DNA of 7,481 nt from Thermoplasmata archaeon (GTDB lineage Archaea; Thermoplasmatota; Thermoplasmata; Thermoplasmatales; Thermoplasmataceae). Position numbers and translations under genes: made by a program. The notes below the pieces were generated by a model that saw only the letters and a list, made by a program, of their open reading frames with translations, was not told where the DNA came from and did not search any database. Shown piece after piece: positions 2,094-7,481 of this stretch (positions within the stretch are counted from its first letter, which is position 1; every line of letters begins with the position of its first letter). Location: contig JAKAUD010000070.1 of the NCBI GenBank assembly GCA_021827885.1, positions 1-7,481 on the forward strand, in the 5' to 3' direction.

Positions 2094-3029
2094 ATGAGCA
2101 AACCGAAAGTTCTGGATCTTTTCTGCGGAATGGGGGGGCTCTCATTAGGATTTGCAAAGGCAGGATACTCTGTGACAGGGGTAGACGTGGCGGAAGATGC
2201 AAGGCTCGTCTATGAAAAAATTCCATCATCCAGATTCTTTAAAGCAGACCTTCGCAAGGACATCATTGAGGGAGAATATGATTACGTAATTGGAGGTCCA
2301 CCGTGCAAACCCTGGTCCAGCGTAAATCTGACAAGAAGGGGTGATAGCCACAGAGATTACGACCTCGTAAAAAGTTATGCCGACAACGTTCTCAATATAA
2401 GACCATCTGGATTTGTTCTGGAAAATGTCCCTCCCCTGAGAAATGATCCGGAATTTCGGAAACAGATGAGACGCTTCATAAGGGCAGGTTATTCCGTCAA
2501 GGTTGACCTTTACACATATTCAGATTATGGAGCAGCAACATCCAGAAGACGTATGTTCGCAGTTGGTTTCAGGGACCTCGATGCCGAGAGTTTTACTCGT
2601 GCCCTAGAAGCTTACAAGAAACCGGCCAAGACAGTTCTTAGTGCAATAGGTAGATACAGGAATCTCAAAAATGGTGAGCATCCTGATCATCAGTGGCCCA
2701 ACCTGAGAACTATTCATAAATACATTGATTACTATGAATCTGGAAAGTTTGGATGGGCAAGACTGGAGTGGGATAAGCCGGCCCATTCCTTTGGAAACGT
2801 TATGAAGACGTACACTCTGCATCCGGATTCAGATCCACATTTTGACAATCCAAGGGTCGTGTCTCCCCTCGAAGTTTCAAGAATAATGGGATTCAATCAT
2901 GGATTCAGATTCCCACATGGAGTTACTATGGGAAGAAAATATCAGATGCTTGCGGACTCTGTCAGTCCAACATTTTCGGAAAAGCTTGCAATAGCACTAC
3001 TGAATGCGGATTCGGACGTTAAAAATTAA
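2094..3029 (+). CDS. drmMII: Cytosine-C5 DNA methyltransferase, probable DISARM DrmMII
   Basis: This 311-residue protein methylates cytosine at carbon 5 in a specific DNA sequence using S-adenosylmethionine. The family motifs are present in order: I, DLFCGMGGLSLGF (8-20); IV, GGPPCKPWS (67-75) with catalytic Cys71; VI, ENVP (110-113); VIII, ATSRRRMF (148-155); X, ending LADSVSP (286-292). A short target-recognition region lies at roughly 160-255, so it is a small, complete enzyme. In motif X the usual Gly-Asn before Ser-Val is Ala-Asp, an unusual variant. It ends 94 bases from the end of the convergent operon carrying drmB and drmC, and DISARM class 2 systems use this enzyme type (DrmMII) to mark self DNA, so I assign that role. 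In the best-studied systems the gene is co-directional; here it faces the operon and has its own promoter. A solitary 5mC methyltransferase is the alternative. Family call very sure; DISARM role likely. Confidence 0.9.
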   Translation: MSKPKVLDLFCGMGGLSLGFAKAGYSVTGVDVAEDARLVYEKIPSSRFFKADLRKDIIEGEYDYVIGGPPCKPWSSVNLTRRGDSHRDYDLVKSYADNVLNIRPSGFVLENVPPLRNDPEFRKQMRRFIRAGYSVKVDLYTYSDYGAATSRRRMFAVGFRDLDAESFTRALEAYKKPAKTVLSAIGRYRNLKNGEHPDHQWPNLRTIHKYIDYYESGKFGWARLEWDKPAHSFGNVMKTYTLHPDSDPHFDNPRVVSPLEVSRIMGFNHGFRFPHGVTMGRKYQMLADSVSPTFSEKLAIALLNADSDVKN

Positions 3030-3123
3030 CATTTTTGATGAATTAAGGAATTTCATTCGTTTGCTTGAAAAATCTAACGAAAGCCCAGACATCATTTTAT
3101 CCGTTTCCTGCTATCTGGTTTGA
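3030..3123. terminator. Convergent intergenic region with oligo-T stretches in both directions
   Basis: Two genes end here tail-to-tail. On the plus strand a T5 run (3032-3036) follows the methyltransferase stop almost at once. On the minus strand a T5 run (complement of 3068-3072) lies about 50 bases past the end of the long gene. Archaeal RNA polymerase ends transcripts at such oligo-T stretches, so both may work as terminators. A weak inverted repeat, TTCGTT (3056-3061) and AACGAA (3076-3081), surrounds the second run. No coding capacity was seen. Confidence 0.35.
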
Positions 3124-6100
3124 TCATTCATTATTCCCAGTCGTTATGTGACTTTCTATATATTCATTATAATTCTCGATTACCCTCAATCTTGGAACTT
3201 CTTTCTCCAGATTTACCAAGAATGCGTTAACCACCTTAAAGAATGAGGACTCATGAATTTCAGCGGTAATTTCCCTTCTCACTTGGCTCTGTATCGTTCT
3301 AAATTGTTGATCAATCGTGTTTGACCTTAAGAAAGACCTTCTAAACTCTTGAAGAAGAACAGATGCCGTGTAACTTCTTTCCACTTCTTCAGCTTCAAGA
3401 TTCGCTTCAGGAATTCTTTTATTGATTCCAATGCATATTTTCCTGGTATCCTCTATACTTTTTGTGTGCTCAATACTATATATAAAATAGTCTCTATTCT
3501 CTATCGTAGTTAGTTCGTAATCTGTCCACCATCGCCTAATATATGACGGGTTGCTAGCTATTAATTTAAGACTCGACAAAAAATTGGCCATAAATTCCTC
3601 CGCTTCCTCGTATTCTAACCTGTTAATTTCCGAATAGAGGTTGATTGAACGGTTAATATATGAAATCCATCCTACGGAACTACTATAAAGATCCTGGAAC
3701 CCATTCCACTCATAAACTCCTTTGCGGAATTTTATATTTCTTGCCCATCTAATCATATATTTTAAAAACATTGATTTGAAAGACCGATGAAATCCTTCTA
3801 CATCGATGAGAATTTCAATTCCGATAAGATCCTTATTCAGGTTTTTCTTATTCGTCGGTTTTAATTCTTTTTCAGTTATGTATCCTCCCTCCTTGACAGT
3901 AACAGTCTCATCAACCTTTACGAACATACCCTTTCCTTCACCATTAATAATGAGTACAGCTTCTTCGCCTGAATTGATCTTTGAGTACCGTTCATGTCTT
4001 GCCCTAGGCGCAGATGAAACAGGAACCCCTTCCAAGCCGCCAAATTCAATCGTAACATCTTTGAGTTCTTCTTGAATTCCTTCTATTGCTGATAAGTCAA
4101 CTTCTTTCATAGCATTTTTCAGTAGCAGAGGTGCCTGCTCGGCATCTAACAAAGGTTGGACTGGCCGGGAACGAGGCTCTGTCATCCTGTTTGTAATCAC
4201 TCTGTTGATTTTTTCTAGATTTCTATTGGAGCCCACGAAAATATATTTCTTGACCGGACTATGATATACTGAATAGTCAATATCCGGATAAGTCGTCGCT
4301 ATGACAACGTTCTCCTTATTTTTTACTATTTGATCTTCCCGGGATTGTAAATCCCTCCAGCTGCAGATCTGTAAATGTCTCGAAGTGTTCTCTTCTAGCT
4401 CATAATTTTTCAACAGTTGGGTTACTCCACGAACATCAAAGCCATTAACAACGAATGTCACGTATGCTTGGTCAGATGAAGTAAGTTCTTTTATAATTCC
4501 AACCACGCGATCCAGTATGGGAGTAACACGATAACTGCCCAGTTTGTATGCTGATGTAAATATTTCCTCAGTGCGTTTGAAATGACTTTCCTCGATCCTT
4601 TCTCTTAAGGACTCCATTACTGTTTCGTATGTGATCGAACTTAAGGCTTTTCCAGGTCGCCTGAATACCTCAACCTGATTCTGCGATCCTTTAAGTCTCA
4701 GAGGACTCTTCTGCAATTCATCCACAAATTTTCTTATGTCTTCTTTAAGACTGTCGTTCTGCAGAAACTTGCTAATTTCTACCGCATTGTCCAGCCTATT
4801 AAGTTCGTCTATCGGCACTAATTCTATAGACGGTTTGAGTTCTACCGTTTGCGGAAGCTCTTTCCAGCGAGATGAAAGTGAATTTGAGTATCTCGACTCA
4901 TATCCAAGACCATTAACTTTAAGATAATTTAAAACTGTATCATTATCCCAAGTATGCGATATGACGTTGCAATTTACGTCAACGGGGGTATCGTAAAGGT
5001 GATAAAGGTGTCTGATATCTTTATTTGTGGAAAACATTAGAACAGCAGAGACTTTATTCGTCTTCAGAAATCTAATTAGACTTTTACTCTTCGGTCCTCT
5101 TATAATCCTGTCTCGAATGAGCTCATCTGTGTCGGGAATAACCAAAAGGTCTGGAGAAACTCTGTCTATATATTCAAACATTTCCGCTGGATCTTCGGTG
5201 AGATTAATAAAAGTTAGCTTGGCGCTTTTATTCGCCAGATCAGGAAAAGGAGTATGTATCGAAATATTTGAAATGAGTTTTTTAGGATTTCTCATTTCCG
5301 GAGACTGTAAAAGACAATTCCACAGCCATCTTTTGTCATAGTAGAGTTTCCCAGTATACTTTTCTATTTCAGTCAATTTCAGGTCAACGACCCCGTTTTC
5401 GTTAAACCGTGATCTTTTTCTTTTTTTATTCAGTTTAATCTCATCAAGGTTTCTGATGCAGTTTTCTCCGTAAATAGATGAGAGCTCTTTCCTAAACCTG
5501 TTCTTACATTTCAAGAAACTTTCGGTACAGTCCCCTCCCGATCTGTTTCCCTGACCAATTTTTCTGATCTCATATTCCGTGACAACCTTACGTTGGATTA
5601 CATCGACCCCGTCAAGGTTTTTCATTTCTGATTTGATCTCTTCCGAAATCTCGAAATTCGAAAAAGAATGGTCAAAGAAAACAGAGTTTCTAAATAATTC
5701 AGAAATACTTGGCACTCCTATATGTGTGAAATCAGAATTGTATGAAGAACTCACATCCACAATCATCATTCTCTTATCCTTATTGGTTGTCAGATATTCC
5801 ACTGCAAGAATCGGAATGAATTTTACCGTGTCCCATGGCCAAGTGACAATTATATGGAGAGGAGAGTTTAATTGGCTTACCCATTTTATATACTCTTCCT
5901 CTATGATGTTGGGTTTAATTTCCCAAACAAGGGGCATATTTGTAAGAAAATCCCTGGCTTTTGCCCCTTCATTCTTGGATACCTCTTCTACTGTACTGTG
6001 AAACACTGACCGGTTCAGGTTCACTCTATTATGGAAAGTGCAACCACAATTTAGACACCTGAATCTGCCCGCATCTTCTTGTTCTAAGCCAGCTATCCCG

Positions 6101-6156
6101 TTATGCGGTTCATGACAGTTTGGACAGGTTGGCAGGTAGTGAAAATAGAACTTCAT
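3124..6156 (-). CDS. 1010-aa zinc-ribbon plus degenerate SF2-helicase-like protein, candidate DISARM DrmE
   Basis: The N-terminus holds a zinc ribbon: CPNC (11-14), then CLNCGC (34-39). After it the protein follows the layout of a superfamily-2 helicase with worn catalytic motifs. HIIVTWPWDTVKF (101-113) stands where a Walker A loop would be but has no GxGK[ST]; PDLLVIPDTDEL (335-346) resembles a Walker B/DExx strand without DExH/DExD; AVLMFST (371-377) resembles motif III. The second lobe shows AYVTFVVNG (564-572), NVVIATTYPD (616-625) and KKYIFVGS followed by INRVITNR (650-657), in place of motifs IV, V and VI. The C-terminal ~300 residues are mostly helical and charged, without a domain I recognise. 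No ATPase activity is expected. Its ATG overlaps the drmC stop (ATGA), and AGGAA lies about 10 bases upstream, so it is translated as the third visible gene of the operon. DrmE, the extra protein of class 2 DISARM, is large and of unclear mechanism; position and partners make this the likely counterpart, but the identification is inference. Confidence 0.6.
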   Translation of the reverse strand: MKFYFHYLPTCPNCHEPHNGIAGLEQEDAGRFRCLNCGCTFHNRVNLNRSVFHSTVEEVSKNEGAKARDFLTNMPLVWEIKPNIIEEEYIKWVSQLNSPLHIIVTWPWDTVKFIPILAVEYLTTNKDKRMMIVDVSSSYNSDFTHIGVPSISELFRNSVFFDHSFSNFEISEEIKSEMKNLDGVDVIQRKVVTEYEIRKIGQGNRSGGDCTESFLKCKNRFRKELSSIYGENCIRNLDEIKLNKKRKRSRFNENGVVDLKLTEIEKYTGKLYYDKRWLWNCLLQSPEMRNPKKLISNISIHTPFPDLANKSAKLTFINLTEDPAEMFEYIDRVSPDLLVIPDTDELIRDRIIRGPKSKSLIRFLKTNKVSAVLMFSTNKDIRHLYHLYDTPVDVNCNVISHTWDNDTVLNYLKVNGLGYESRYSNSLSSRWKELPQTVELKPSIELVPIDELNRLDNAVEISKFLQNDSLKEDIRKFVDELQKSPLRLKGSQNQVEVFRRPGKALSSITYETVMESLRERIEESHFKRTEEIFTSAYKLGSYRVTPILDRVVGIIKELTSSDQAYVTFVVNGFDVRGVTQLLKNYELEENTSRHLQICSWRDLQSREDQIVKNKENVVIATTYPDIDYSVYHSPVKKYIFVGSNRNLEKINRVITNRMTEPRSRPVQPLLDAEQAPLLLKNAMKEVDLSAIEGIQEELKDVTIEFGGLEGVPVSSAPRARHERYSKINSGEEAVLIINGEGKGMFVKVDETVTVKEGGYITEKELKPTNKKNLNKDLIGIEILIDVEGFHRSFKSMFLKYMIRWARNIKFRKGVYEWNGFQDLYSSSVGWISYINRSINLYSEINRLEYEEAEEFMANFLSSLKLIASNPSYIRRWWTDYELTTIENRDYFIYSIEHTKSIEDTRKICIGINKRIPEANLEAEEVERSYTASVLLQEFRRSFLRSNTIDQQFRTIQSQVRREITAEIHESSFFKVVNAFLVNLEKEVPRLRVIENYNEYIESHITTGNNE

Positions 6157-6620
6157 GTTACTAGTTTCCTTAGTAAAGTCAGAATCTGGTAAGCAACTTC
6201 CTGATCTTCTAACATCAGTGCCAGTTCGTAATTTGTAACCATGCCAGCATAAGTGACATTGGCAGACCCCGTTATTACTCGCATTCCGTCACTTACGATG
6301 ACCTTCGCATGAAGCACTTCGTTTCTTATTTTGTGAATTGTAAGATTGCTATACCGTTCCTCCAGAGAAGTTATTTCCTTGGCGGAATTGGCAAATGTAG
6401 GATCCTCCGGATAATAGATAAAAACTTCGACGGTAATTCCCCGTTCTAGGGCTTTTCTTATTCTTTTAATAATAACTTGGTCTGACACGGAATATATTGT
6501 TAAGGAGAGATTTTCTTTAGTACTGTCGATCATTTCACAGACAGTGGAGGAAATAGATCTAATTCCGTACCCCACCCATCTTTCTCCCGATGTCACTAAC
6601 TTGACGTCGCCTGATCTCAA
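6153..6620 (-). CDS. drmC: Compact phospholipase D-like (HKD) protein, DISARM DrmC
   Basis: This 155-residue protein has one HKD motif: His104, Lys106 and Asp111 in HAKVIVSD, followed by GSAN (118-121) and Glu132 in NYELALML. This is the phospholipase D/nuclease fold. With one motif it would have to dimerise to form an active site, as small PLD-family nucleases do. The preceding half (residues 20-70, with SLTIYSVSD and GITVEVFIYY) supplies the conserved strands before the motif. DrmC in DISARM belongs to this family and directly follows drmB, as here. It is shorter than the DrmC proteins I recall, apparently lacking their extra N-terminal part. The start is a TTG at 6620-6618, immediately after the drmB TGA, which is in the same frame and prevents any earlier start; GGTGAT (6629-6624) is a strong archaeal ribosome-binding motif 3 bases before it. 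A GTG at codon 9 is possible but has weaker support. DrmC was reported to be dispensable in the tested bacterial system. Confidence 0.82.
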   Translation of the reverse strand: MRSGDVKLVTSGERWVGYGIRSISSTVCEMIDSTKENLSLTIYSVSDQVIIKRIRKALERGITVEVFIYYPEDPTFANSAKEITSLEERYSNLTIHKIRNEVLHAKVIVSDGMRVITGSANVTYAGMVTNYELALMLEDQEVAYQILTLLRKLVT

Positions 6621-7481
6621 TCAATCACCAGTTATTATGTGCCGATCAAGAAACATGTTCCTGTGTTCACAAGATGTCTCCGAAGTAAAAAGACAGCTAT
6701 AGCATGCTGAACCATTTTCCCTATTTGGCGGCTTTCTAGACTCAAAACAAAGCGGGTCATTAGAGCAGAAGGTATTTTTATCATCTGCTATCCCAATTAT
6801 CTCTTCCAAATTTCGCATATTGGCAAGTCCAACGAGTCCGCCCATGCTTCCATCTTCACCTGCAGAAGCCGTGTAAATAAGTATTCCACCTTTCTTGAAC
6901 TCTCTGTCTAAATATATTCTTTCTCTTATGGAGGCAGAGGAATATCCAGCGTAATGAGCCAAGGCTCTGATAAGAGAATGCGACAGTGTATGAAACCACA
7001 CAAACAATGGTTGCCTTGGAAGATTCTCCCAGTATTGATGCCCTCTGTCCAATCCAGATATCGATTTGTTGTCTTTATCCCATGTATTCCAAGACTCACC
7101 TTTAAGAATCCCCGAGTCTTCGTCGACCGTAATGAACAACCCTTCCCCTTTCCCTTCGAAACCCGGATACCACGTGAATTCACCATATCGTGACCCAGAA
7201 CTGATTCGTAGATCATTTCCCGCTCCGCCGATTCTGTCGACCTGTTCTATATAGGGGGTTCTGTGATAACCTATCTGAGCAGTCACTGTTCTGAGCATAG
7301 GCACAGGATAAACCTTCAGACGAGGAATGTTTCTCCTGCTTGCATTCACAGAAATTGGTCCTGAGATACTGAATGTTTGCCCTGAACGAATCTCACCTGA
7401 AGATAAGGAGTCATACTCTTCATAAACAAAGTCCAAGAACTTTTTATTTTTATCGGTGAGTCTAACAAAGAGATTTTTCAG
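6621..7481 (-). CDS. drmB: DISARM protein DrmB, C-terminal part with DUF1998 (runs off the right edge)
   Basis: The frame is open from the window edge to the TGA at 6623-6621, giving the last 286 residues; a TTG at 7436 is only an internal leucine codon, since LKNLFVRLTDKNKKF is encoded before it. Counting from the edge, the DUF1998 hallmarks are HTLSHSLIRAL (164-174), YSSASIRERIY (180-190), GGILIYTASAGEDGSMGGLV (198-217) and a cysteine cluster (Cys239, 245, 260, 263, 271; CYSC then ETSCEHRN) that probably binds zinc. This is the typical end of DrmB, which works with the helicase DrmA as the core DISARM effector that engages incoming phage DNA. Full DrmB proteins are about twice this long, so the N-terminal half is outside the window, probably preceded by drmA. 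The stop abuts the drmC start with no gap, indicating one operon. Other DUF1998 proteins occur in helicase-linked defence systems, but the following PLD gene favours DISARM. Confidence 0.88.
   Translation of the reverse strand: MKNLFVRLTDKNKKFLDFVYEEYDSLSSGEIRSGQTFSISGPISVNASRRNIPRLKVYPVPMLRTVTAQIGYHRTPYIEQVDRIGGAGNDLRISSGSRYGEFTWYPGFEGKGEGLFITVDEDSGILKGESWNTWDKDNKSISGLDRGHQYWENLPRQPLFVWFHTLSHSLIRALAHYAGYSSASIRERIYLDREFKKGGILIYTASAGEDGSMGGLVGLANMRNLEEIIGIADDKNTFCSNDPLCFESRKPPNRENGSACYSCLFTSETSCEHRNMFLDRHIITGD
6624..6629 (-). promoter_or_regulatory. Ribosome-binding motif GGTGAT that sets the drmC TTG start
   Basis: On the minus strand GGTGAT matches the complement of the archaeal 16S rRNA 3' end (…ATCACCTCC). 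It lies inside the last codons of drmB, three bases before the TTG at 6620. It supports the unusual TTG start of drmC and translation coupled to drmB termination. Confidence 0.5.

Follow-up and report, generated by a model that had tools for sequence, protein, structure and literature searches.

Gene content of the locus

We analyzed a 7,481-nucleotide stretch of a Thermoplasmata archaeon genome (contig JAKAUD010000070.1; the whole stretch is hereafter called the window) carrying part of a candidate DISARM (defence island system associated with restriction–modification) locus. An earlier note, made from the sequence alone, had described here the DUF1998 end of DrmB, a phospholipase D (PLD) family protein with one motif, a 1010-residue degenerate helicase-like protein and a C5-cytosine methyltransferase. 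These four genes were confirmed, and all are open at the coordinates where the note had placed them.

2094..3029, plus strand: methyltransferase gene, drmMII-type C5-cytosine DNA methyltransferase, 311 residues
2298..2306, plus strand: catalytic PPC of the methyltransferase (motif IV, residues 69–71; pattern scan)
3124..6156, minus strand: gene of the putative 1010-residue pseudo-helicase subunit, last in the operon; no family match above a curated cut-off
3157..3984, minus strand: C-terminal third of the 1010-residue protein (about residues 725–1000), weak DrmE_fam profile match
5833..5844, minus strand: TWPW motif of the same protein (residues 105–108), at least 90% conserved
6046..6126, minus strand: its N-terminal CxxC...CxxC zinc-ribbon-like motif (residues 11–37); C11, C14, C34 and C37 at least 90% conserved
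6153..6620, minus strand: drmC, PLD-family nuclease, 155 residues, TTG start (PADLOC and Pfam)
6258..6311, minus strand: the one HKD motif of DrmC, HAKVIVSDGMRVITGSAN (pattern scan)
6621..7481, minus strand: C-terminal 286 residues of DrmB with the MZB/DUF1998 domain; gene truncated by the window edge (PADLOC and NCBIfam)
6669..6767, minus strand: cluster of five cysteines near the DrmB end (sequence scan)

The tight operon seen earlier also held up: drmB and drmC abut when the TTG start is assumed for drmC, and drmC overlaps the 1010-residue gene by 4 bp, an overlap that is identical in all eight loci displayed. The methyltransferase gene indeed faces the operon, converging on its end across a 94-bp gap.

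Among the PADLOC defence profiles, those of DrmB, DrmC and DrmMII matched proteins of the window, and none for DrmE did. The DrmB part matched PDLC02583 (6e-85; profile positions 313–604 of 606), NCBIfam DrmB_fam (255.5 bits against a cut-off of 240) and Pfam MZB (4e-8), MZB being the DUF1998 region according to PMC12458937. DrmC matched PDLC02614 (6.3e-50) and Pfam PLDc_2 (3.3e-20), carried a single HxK(x4)D...GSxN motif and stayed below the cut-off of NCBIfam DISARM_DrmC_I (74.2 versus 133 bits). In the window and its relatives, DrmC has about 155 residues, versus 247–264 in three bacterial loci; the part missing is probably the N-terminal four-helix bundle that most DrmC proteins carry (PMC12458937). 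The methyltransferase contains the motifs DLFCGMGG, PPCKPWS and VLENV and matched PF00145 (4e-38) and, best, PADLOC DrmMII PDLC02655 (3.8e-97), with 323.5 bits versus 151.5 for the next profile. The closest of 14 other enzymes compared (49.8% identity) lies in a Ferroplasma sp. DISARM operon, directly after a homologue of the 1010-residue protein, whereas the larger enzymes encoded in 10 sister loci were 21–33% identical. The inversion of this gene is real, and its subfamily differs from that of the sister loci while being shared with the Ferroplasma sp. DISARM.

Related loci share the gene order of the window

A collection of 84,980 species genomes was scanned with one conserved peptide pattern taken from alignment A1, a design that misses loci without the pattern. 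It matched 41 stretches, 12 of which encode a relative of the 1010-residue protein (hereafter the 1000-residue family). The 12 contigs comprise 11 archaeal ones and a Desulfuromonas bin, from a phylum sampled with four genomes, such that bacterial spread is barely covered. The archaeal carriers belong to Thermoplasmatota/Thermoplasmata, Bathyarchaeota, ANME-1, Methanolobus, Archaeoglobales, Ferroplasma and Methanosarcina, and include the named, cultured strains Methanolobus vulcani B1d, M. bombayensis DSM 7082 and Ferroplasma acidarmanus Fer1. A single-sequence search of genome contigs returned no relatives, and none were found in viral contigs or in plasmids; the last protein search, with alignment A4, returned three proteins, the members of alignment A1 not among them, and is not exhaustive. 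The family was rare: in the Ferroplasma phylum 2 of 292 genomes had it, and in the Methanolobus phylum 7 of 246, of which two were marginal and two were fragments; phylum names follow GTDB labels.

In all 12 related loci, drmA lies upstream of drmB as a separate gene, and the 1000-residue gene directly follows drmA-drmB(-drmC). drmC stands between in 10 of them; it was detected by tblastn in L003 and is absent from L007 and L009. Contig ends cut drmA in L012 and the 1000-residue gene in L011 and L012. The two DrmA proteins scanned matched PADLOC DrmA with 1569 (L001) and 1525 bits. A methyltransferase gene is present in 10 loci: eight have it upstream of drmA, and two have it downstream of the 1000-residue gene. 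The remaining two contigs start just before or within drmA. The archaeal locus L044, with a DrmE_fam match of 60.6 bits (below the cut-off), is likewise ordered drmA-drmB-drmC-drmE. The earlier claim of a rearranged gene order was therefore abandoned, because the 1000-residue gene follows drmB or drmC throughout its own lineage.

In a tree of the 1000-residue family (rows P0001, P0012, P0013 and P0018 excluded), the window grouped with the Thermoplasmatota rows L001 and L004 with a support of 100/99. A neighbouring gene fragment was 73% identical over 173 residues to a Ferroplasma-phylum genome, with any match in 12 of 282 genomes. This placement and this match give good support for an archaeal host. 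We consider it likely that the window contains the distal half of a 5-methylcytosine (5mC)-type DISARM operon in a Thermoplasmatota-like host, with drmB, drmC and the pseudo-helicase gene following a drmA expected beyond the right edge, and with drmMII inverted at the tail.

Several related loci deviate from this layout. Ferroplasma sp. G116 (L020, 4753–9753) encodes a fused DrmA-DrmB of 1666 residues, next to which no drmC profile matched; the same genome has an 805-residue, DrmE-sized homologue of the 1000-residue protein (hhalign 99.7%), the methyltransferase subfamily of the window and a glycosylase gene. The Ferroplasma-type loci L007 and L009 have no drmC; their operon is followed by a gene for a UvrD-PDDEXK helicase-nuclease, which was scanned in L007. 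L047 (10175–11308) and L048 (10596–10958) hold fragments of the 1000-residue gene near which neither a drmA nor a drmB profile matched; these are probably decayed copies.

The 1010-residue protein is predicted to be a helicase fold without ATPase motifs

Besides the protein itself, 19 database relatives were found, with 23–39% identity over 81–100% of the length. No Pfam match of the protein exceeded the cut-off, and NCBIfam and PADLOC gave no match. In Pfam, the window protein had weak leads to Zn_ribbon_10 (0.008) and RNase_H_2 (0.04), and the best lead across 20 family members was DUF1439 (four members, 1.9e-4); all were judged to reflect chance or the zinc ribbon itself. The earlier description as degenerate helicase-like agrees with the predicted fold, and neither the Walker A nor the DExD/H pattern was found in the window protein; scattered matches occurred in some of the 32 aligned rows, none of them at TWPW. 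As a control, 16 of 16 DrmA proteins had both patterns. TWPW was present in 30 of the 32 rows and replaced by NWPF in one, and the remaining row begins downstream of the motif. In the predicted model, it sits between a strand (101–104) and a helix (114–124) and may occupy the site where a P-loop would be expected.

The best VIA matches of the model were RIG-I, Hef, DRH-1, Dicer-2, MDA5 and LGP2. A viral fold library gave general helicases and unrelated low scores only, and a search of PDB sequences with the protein gave nothing convincing (best E 0.01). The model suggests a two-RecA superfamily 2 (SF2) helicase fold without ATPase motifs, preceded by a zinc ribbon and followed by a C-terminal alpha/beta module.

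Relation of the 1010-residue protein to DrmE

The earlier note had called this protein DrmE-like. As worded, that description is not supported, since no DrmE model matched; the likeness consists in predicted fold class, operon membership and one weak C-terminal profile match. In the C-terminal third, the family scored 29.3 against DrmE_fam in hhalign. Column shuffles reached at most 21.2 (60 shuffles) and 19.7 (100), the reversed profile scored 16.6, and 11 control segments scored 12.8–22.9; three further scores (e2, s2 and s3), high by construction through overlapping segments, were not counted as controls. The DrmE alignment (A2) kept seven proteins, four above and three below the DrmE_fam cut-off; L041 11503–13932 and L044 10182–12542 had been removed before the C-terminal comparisons as not DrmE, the latter reading like a gyrase subunit by eye. 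With the same third, DrmE_fam scored 45.6 (78%) against the group of L014, a Lactiplantibacillus plasmid locus ordered drmMII-801-residue gene-drmA-drmB in which the 801-residue protein holds the place of DrmE. Modelled separately, the 1010-residue protein and P0025, a lactobacillar protein named DrmE, each resemble SF2 cores; in the P0025 comparison, DEAD-box and DEAH proteins ranked first, and the Foldseek top matches included Dicer-2 and DRH-1. The C-terminal match is suggestive of common descent with DrmE. We tentatively propose, with less than even confidence, that bacterial class 2 DrmE and the archaeal 1000-residue family form one ancient, ATPase-dead SF2 pseudo-helicase family, with the SNF2-like DrmD as its class 1 counterpart.

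A number of results weigh against our reading of the locus, this proposal included. PADLOC, searched with 20 members up to E = 10, returned three families, DrmE not among them, and NCBIfam DrmE_fam did not match the window protein. Full-length profile comparison gave no signal (probability 0.5% with DrmE_fam and 0.3% with the L014 group). The C-terminal match itself has a low probability (7.4%), and block shuffles (mean 17.6, standard deviation 2.9, maximum 27.1 in 60) put it about 4 standard deviations above their mean. The C-terminal family gave no signal with the L014 group (13.4), and the DrmE-sized Ferroplasma group scored 21.5 against DrmE_fam, below one control family (22.9) and the block-shuffle maximum (23.7). 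The name of P0025 rests on position and a C-terminal DrmE_fam match (78%), and its model is of low confidence (predicted local distance difference test 65.7). For the 1010-residue model, the VIA matches had root-mean-square deviations of 7.7–8.6 Å over 347–377 residues, which we put down to a different placement of the two lobes in the model, and Foldseek TM-scores were low (0.12–0.19 in the top five). Finally, the position of drmA lies past the right edge, the window ending inside drmB, and drmA is therefore not visible. Our confidence in a single family is kept low because the lactobacillar DrmE-by-place goes unrecognized by DrmE models and the Ferroplasma group does not exceed its controls.

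The curated-model test, in which NF038316 was found in none of the seven genomes holding the 1000-residue family, has little power, since PADLOC and NCBIfam also missed the L014 protein in the place of DrmE. A full-length comparison including secondary structure scored 17.6 versus a block-shuffle mean of 18.9, with a secondary-structure term of 0.0 and hence without effect. The two DrmE groups are themselves far apart (full-length probability 4%), and sequence therefore cannot settle orthology. In the Methanolobus phylum, DrmE_fam occurred in 8 of 246 genomes (above the cut-off in four), with a clear drmA in the same gene cluster in six of the eight loci and a weak match in the seventh. No genome had both DrmE_fam and a clear 1000-residue member (5 of 246), an uninformative result since about 0.16 would be expected by chance; a marginal zinc-ribbon match lies elsewhere in G393, one of the DrmE_fam genomes. 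The archaeal locus L041 (8912–16471) has three genes of about 815 residues in tandem before drmA, the first and third matching DrmE_fam (the third below the cut-off). No description of DrmE as a dead helicase was found among the literature matches listed, and PMC12458937 nowhere uses the name DrmE.

Alternative readings and classification

We regard it as somewhat unlikely that the locus is a canonical class 2 DISARM whose 1010-residue protein is a diverged orthologous DrmE. The 5mC methyltransferase with drmB and drmC, the SF2 cores modelled for both this protein and P0025, the weak C-terminal match, the DrmE size of the 805-residue Ferroplasma relative and the failure of DrmE models on a DrmE by position all fit that view, which conflicts with the lack of any DrmE-model match and the empty full-length profile comparisons. 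The lack of a full-length sequence link would be expected if the protein had no relation to DrmE and were a distinct pseudo-helicase that archaeal DISARM took up, perhaps a RIG-I-kind nucleic-acid sensor with its own output. The Ferroplasma score within the control range points the same way, as do the VIA matches led by RIG-I and its kin versus DEAD-box/DEAH for P0025. We hold this reading doubtful: the C-terminal match, weak as it is, is collinear, the operon neighbours are the same, and differences in SF2 ranking mean little at the given model quality, Dicer-2 and DRH-1 being among the P0025 Foldseek tops as well.

An independent solitary or restriction-modification enzyme, in place of the DrmMII of the system, could account for the opposite strand of the methyltransferase gene, its subfamily and its position close to a broken gene and a second methyltransferase gene; the best profile being DrmMII by a wide score difference and the closest relative lying in a Ferroplasma sp. 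DISARM operon make this unlikely. Decay of the locus to a remnant without drmA seems very improbable. It would agree with the absence of drmA from the window and with two Methanolobus-phylum genomes (G352 and G488) that hold fragments of the 1000-residue gene with no drmA or drmB profile match in 18.6 and 11.5 kb. Against it, three complete genes and the DrmB part are open, with motifs intact and overlaps conserved, and the window stops inside drmB before drmA could be reached.

The earlier interpretation as an archaeal DISARM of class 2 type holds in part: the 5mC methyltransferase, drmB, drmC and the archaeal-grouping host agree with it, and no DrmE is recognized by curated models. As PADLOC requires DrmE for type II (PMC9252829), and because the 1010-residue protein is not DrmE by those models, we refrain from classifying the locus as canonical class 2, a class already reported from archaea in Woesearchaeales proviruses (PMC11705971). 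Class 2 (drmA, drmB, drmC, drmE and drmMII) resembles it in the separate DrmB gene, the PLD-type DrmC, the 5mC methyltransferase and, in the relatives, a DrmA that is encoded separately and keeps its helicase motifs intact, and differs in that the window has a zinc-ribbon pseudo-helicase of about 1000 residues after drmC, a short DrmC and an inverted methyltransferase gene. Class 1 (drmD, an SNF2-like helicase gene, with drmMI, drmA, drmB and drmC; PMC9252829) shares the DrmAB core and DrmC; here a 5mC and not an adenine methyltransferase adjoins the operon, and an adenine methyltransferase gene lies 1.1 kb beyond drmMII. The YprA-family systems Dpd, Druantia, ARMADA and BRIGADE share the DUF1998/YprA logic and in some cases a PLD nuclease, but in them helicase and DUF1998 module typically form one fused protein (PMC12458937), whereas the module is separate in the 12 related loci and fused in L020. 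RIG-I, MDA5 and Hef resemble the 1010-residue protein in the predicted two-RecA fold only; identity is about 10%, and the latter has neither Walker A nor DExD/H.

Proposed mechanism

Published DrmAB is activated by unmethylated 5'-overhang DNA, 5mC lowers its ATPase activity, and nuclease recruitment has been proposed for it (PMC9142583). By analogy, archaeal DrmA-DrmB, a two-protein SF2 DNA translocase, would load on incoming DNA whose ends are single-stranded or overhanging and which carries no host 5mC, and would translocate along this unmarked DNA. DrmC, with one catalytic motif and presumably dimeric, would cut the incoming DNA, and DrmMII would mark host DNA as self. The 1010-residue protein may bind DNA or DrmAB without ATP or motor activity and set specificity, serving DrmAB as sensor, clamp or adaptor; in bacterial class 2, DrmE might do the same. 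The locus may serve antiviral defence.

DrmE is the unexplained part of class 2 DISARM, and the interplay of DrmAB with DrmD and DrmE has been said to need study (PMC9142583). If the two proteins do form one ancient family, 5mC-type DISARM would couple an active translocase to a sensor of DNA structure built on a helicase fold without a motor, and the one class 2 subunit whose function is not known would acquire a role. With an archaeal cassette that recurs and ends in a motorless helicase that models well, this question becomes testable, and annotators gain a family that the libraries tested miss.

Neighbouring genes

Genes for likely T:G-mismatch repair accompany drmMII in many loci. A helix-hairpin-helix (HhH) glycosylase-like gene of one family stands beside the methyltransferase gene in L001–L004, L006–L009 (methyltransferase upstream of drmA), L046 and L020, and L005, L010 and L040 also carry a likely repair gene of the glycosylase-like or the Vsr kind. 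Pfam found HhH domains in all three of these proteins scanned, and the best PDB match of two was 1kea, a G-T mismatch repair enzyme (162 and 102 bits; next 117 and 93); PADLOC names the family type II nicking endonuclease, and another role is possible. A Vsr gene lies 1.9–3.4 kb downstream of drmMII in two Methanolobus loci and directly after the methyltransferase gene in L040. Because either kind of gene so often accompanies drmMII, this gene content suggests that 5mC-based DISARM may carry its own repair of 5mC deamination, a combination with no account among the literature matches listed. Neither gene occurs in the window, and one may lie to its right.

Upstream of drmMII, positions 107–943 encode a D12-class adenine DNA methyltransferase (PF02086, 6.1e-15; phage-type profile phrog_56), whose membership in the DISARM operon is not obvious. 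Positions 1162–1986 hold a radical-SAM-like gene on the minus strand that lacks its 5' part (the profile match starts at 142 of 305) and meets, at about 1810, a plus-strand open stretch of 58 codons (1813–1986, no family match). This break is probably a recombination junction beside the defence genes.

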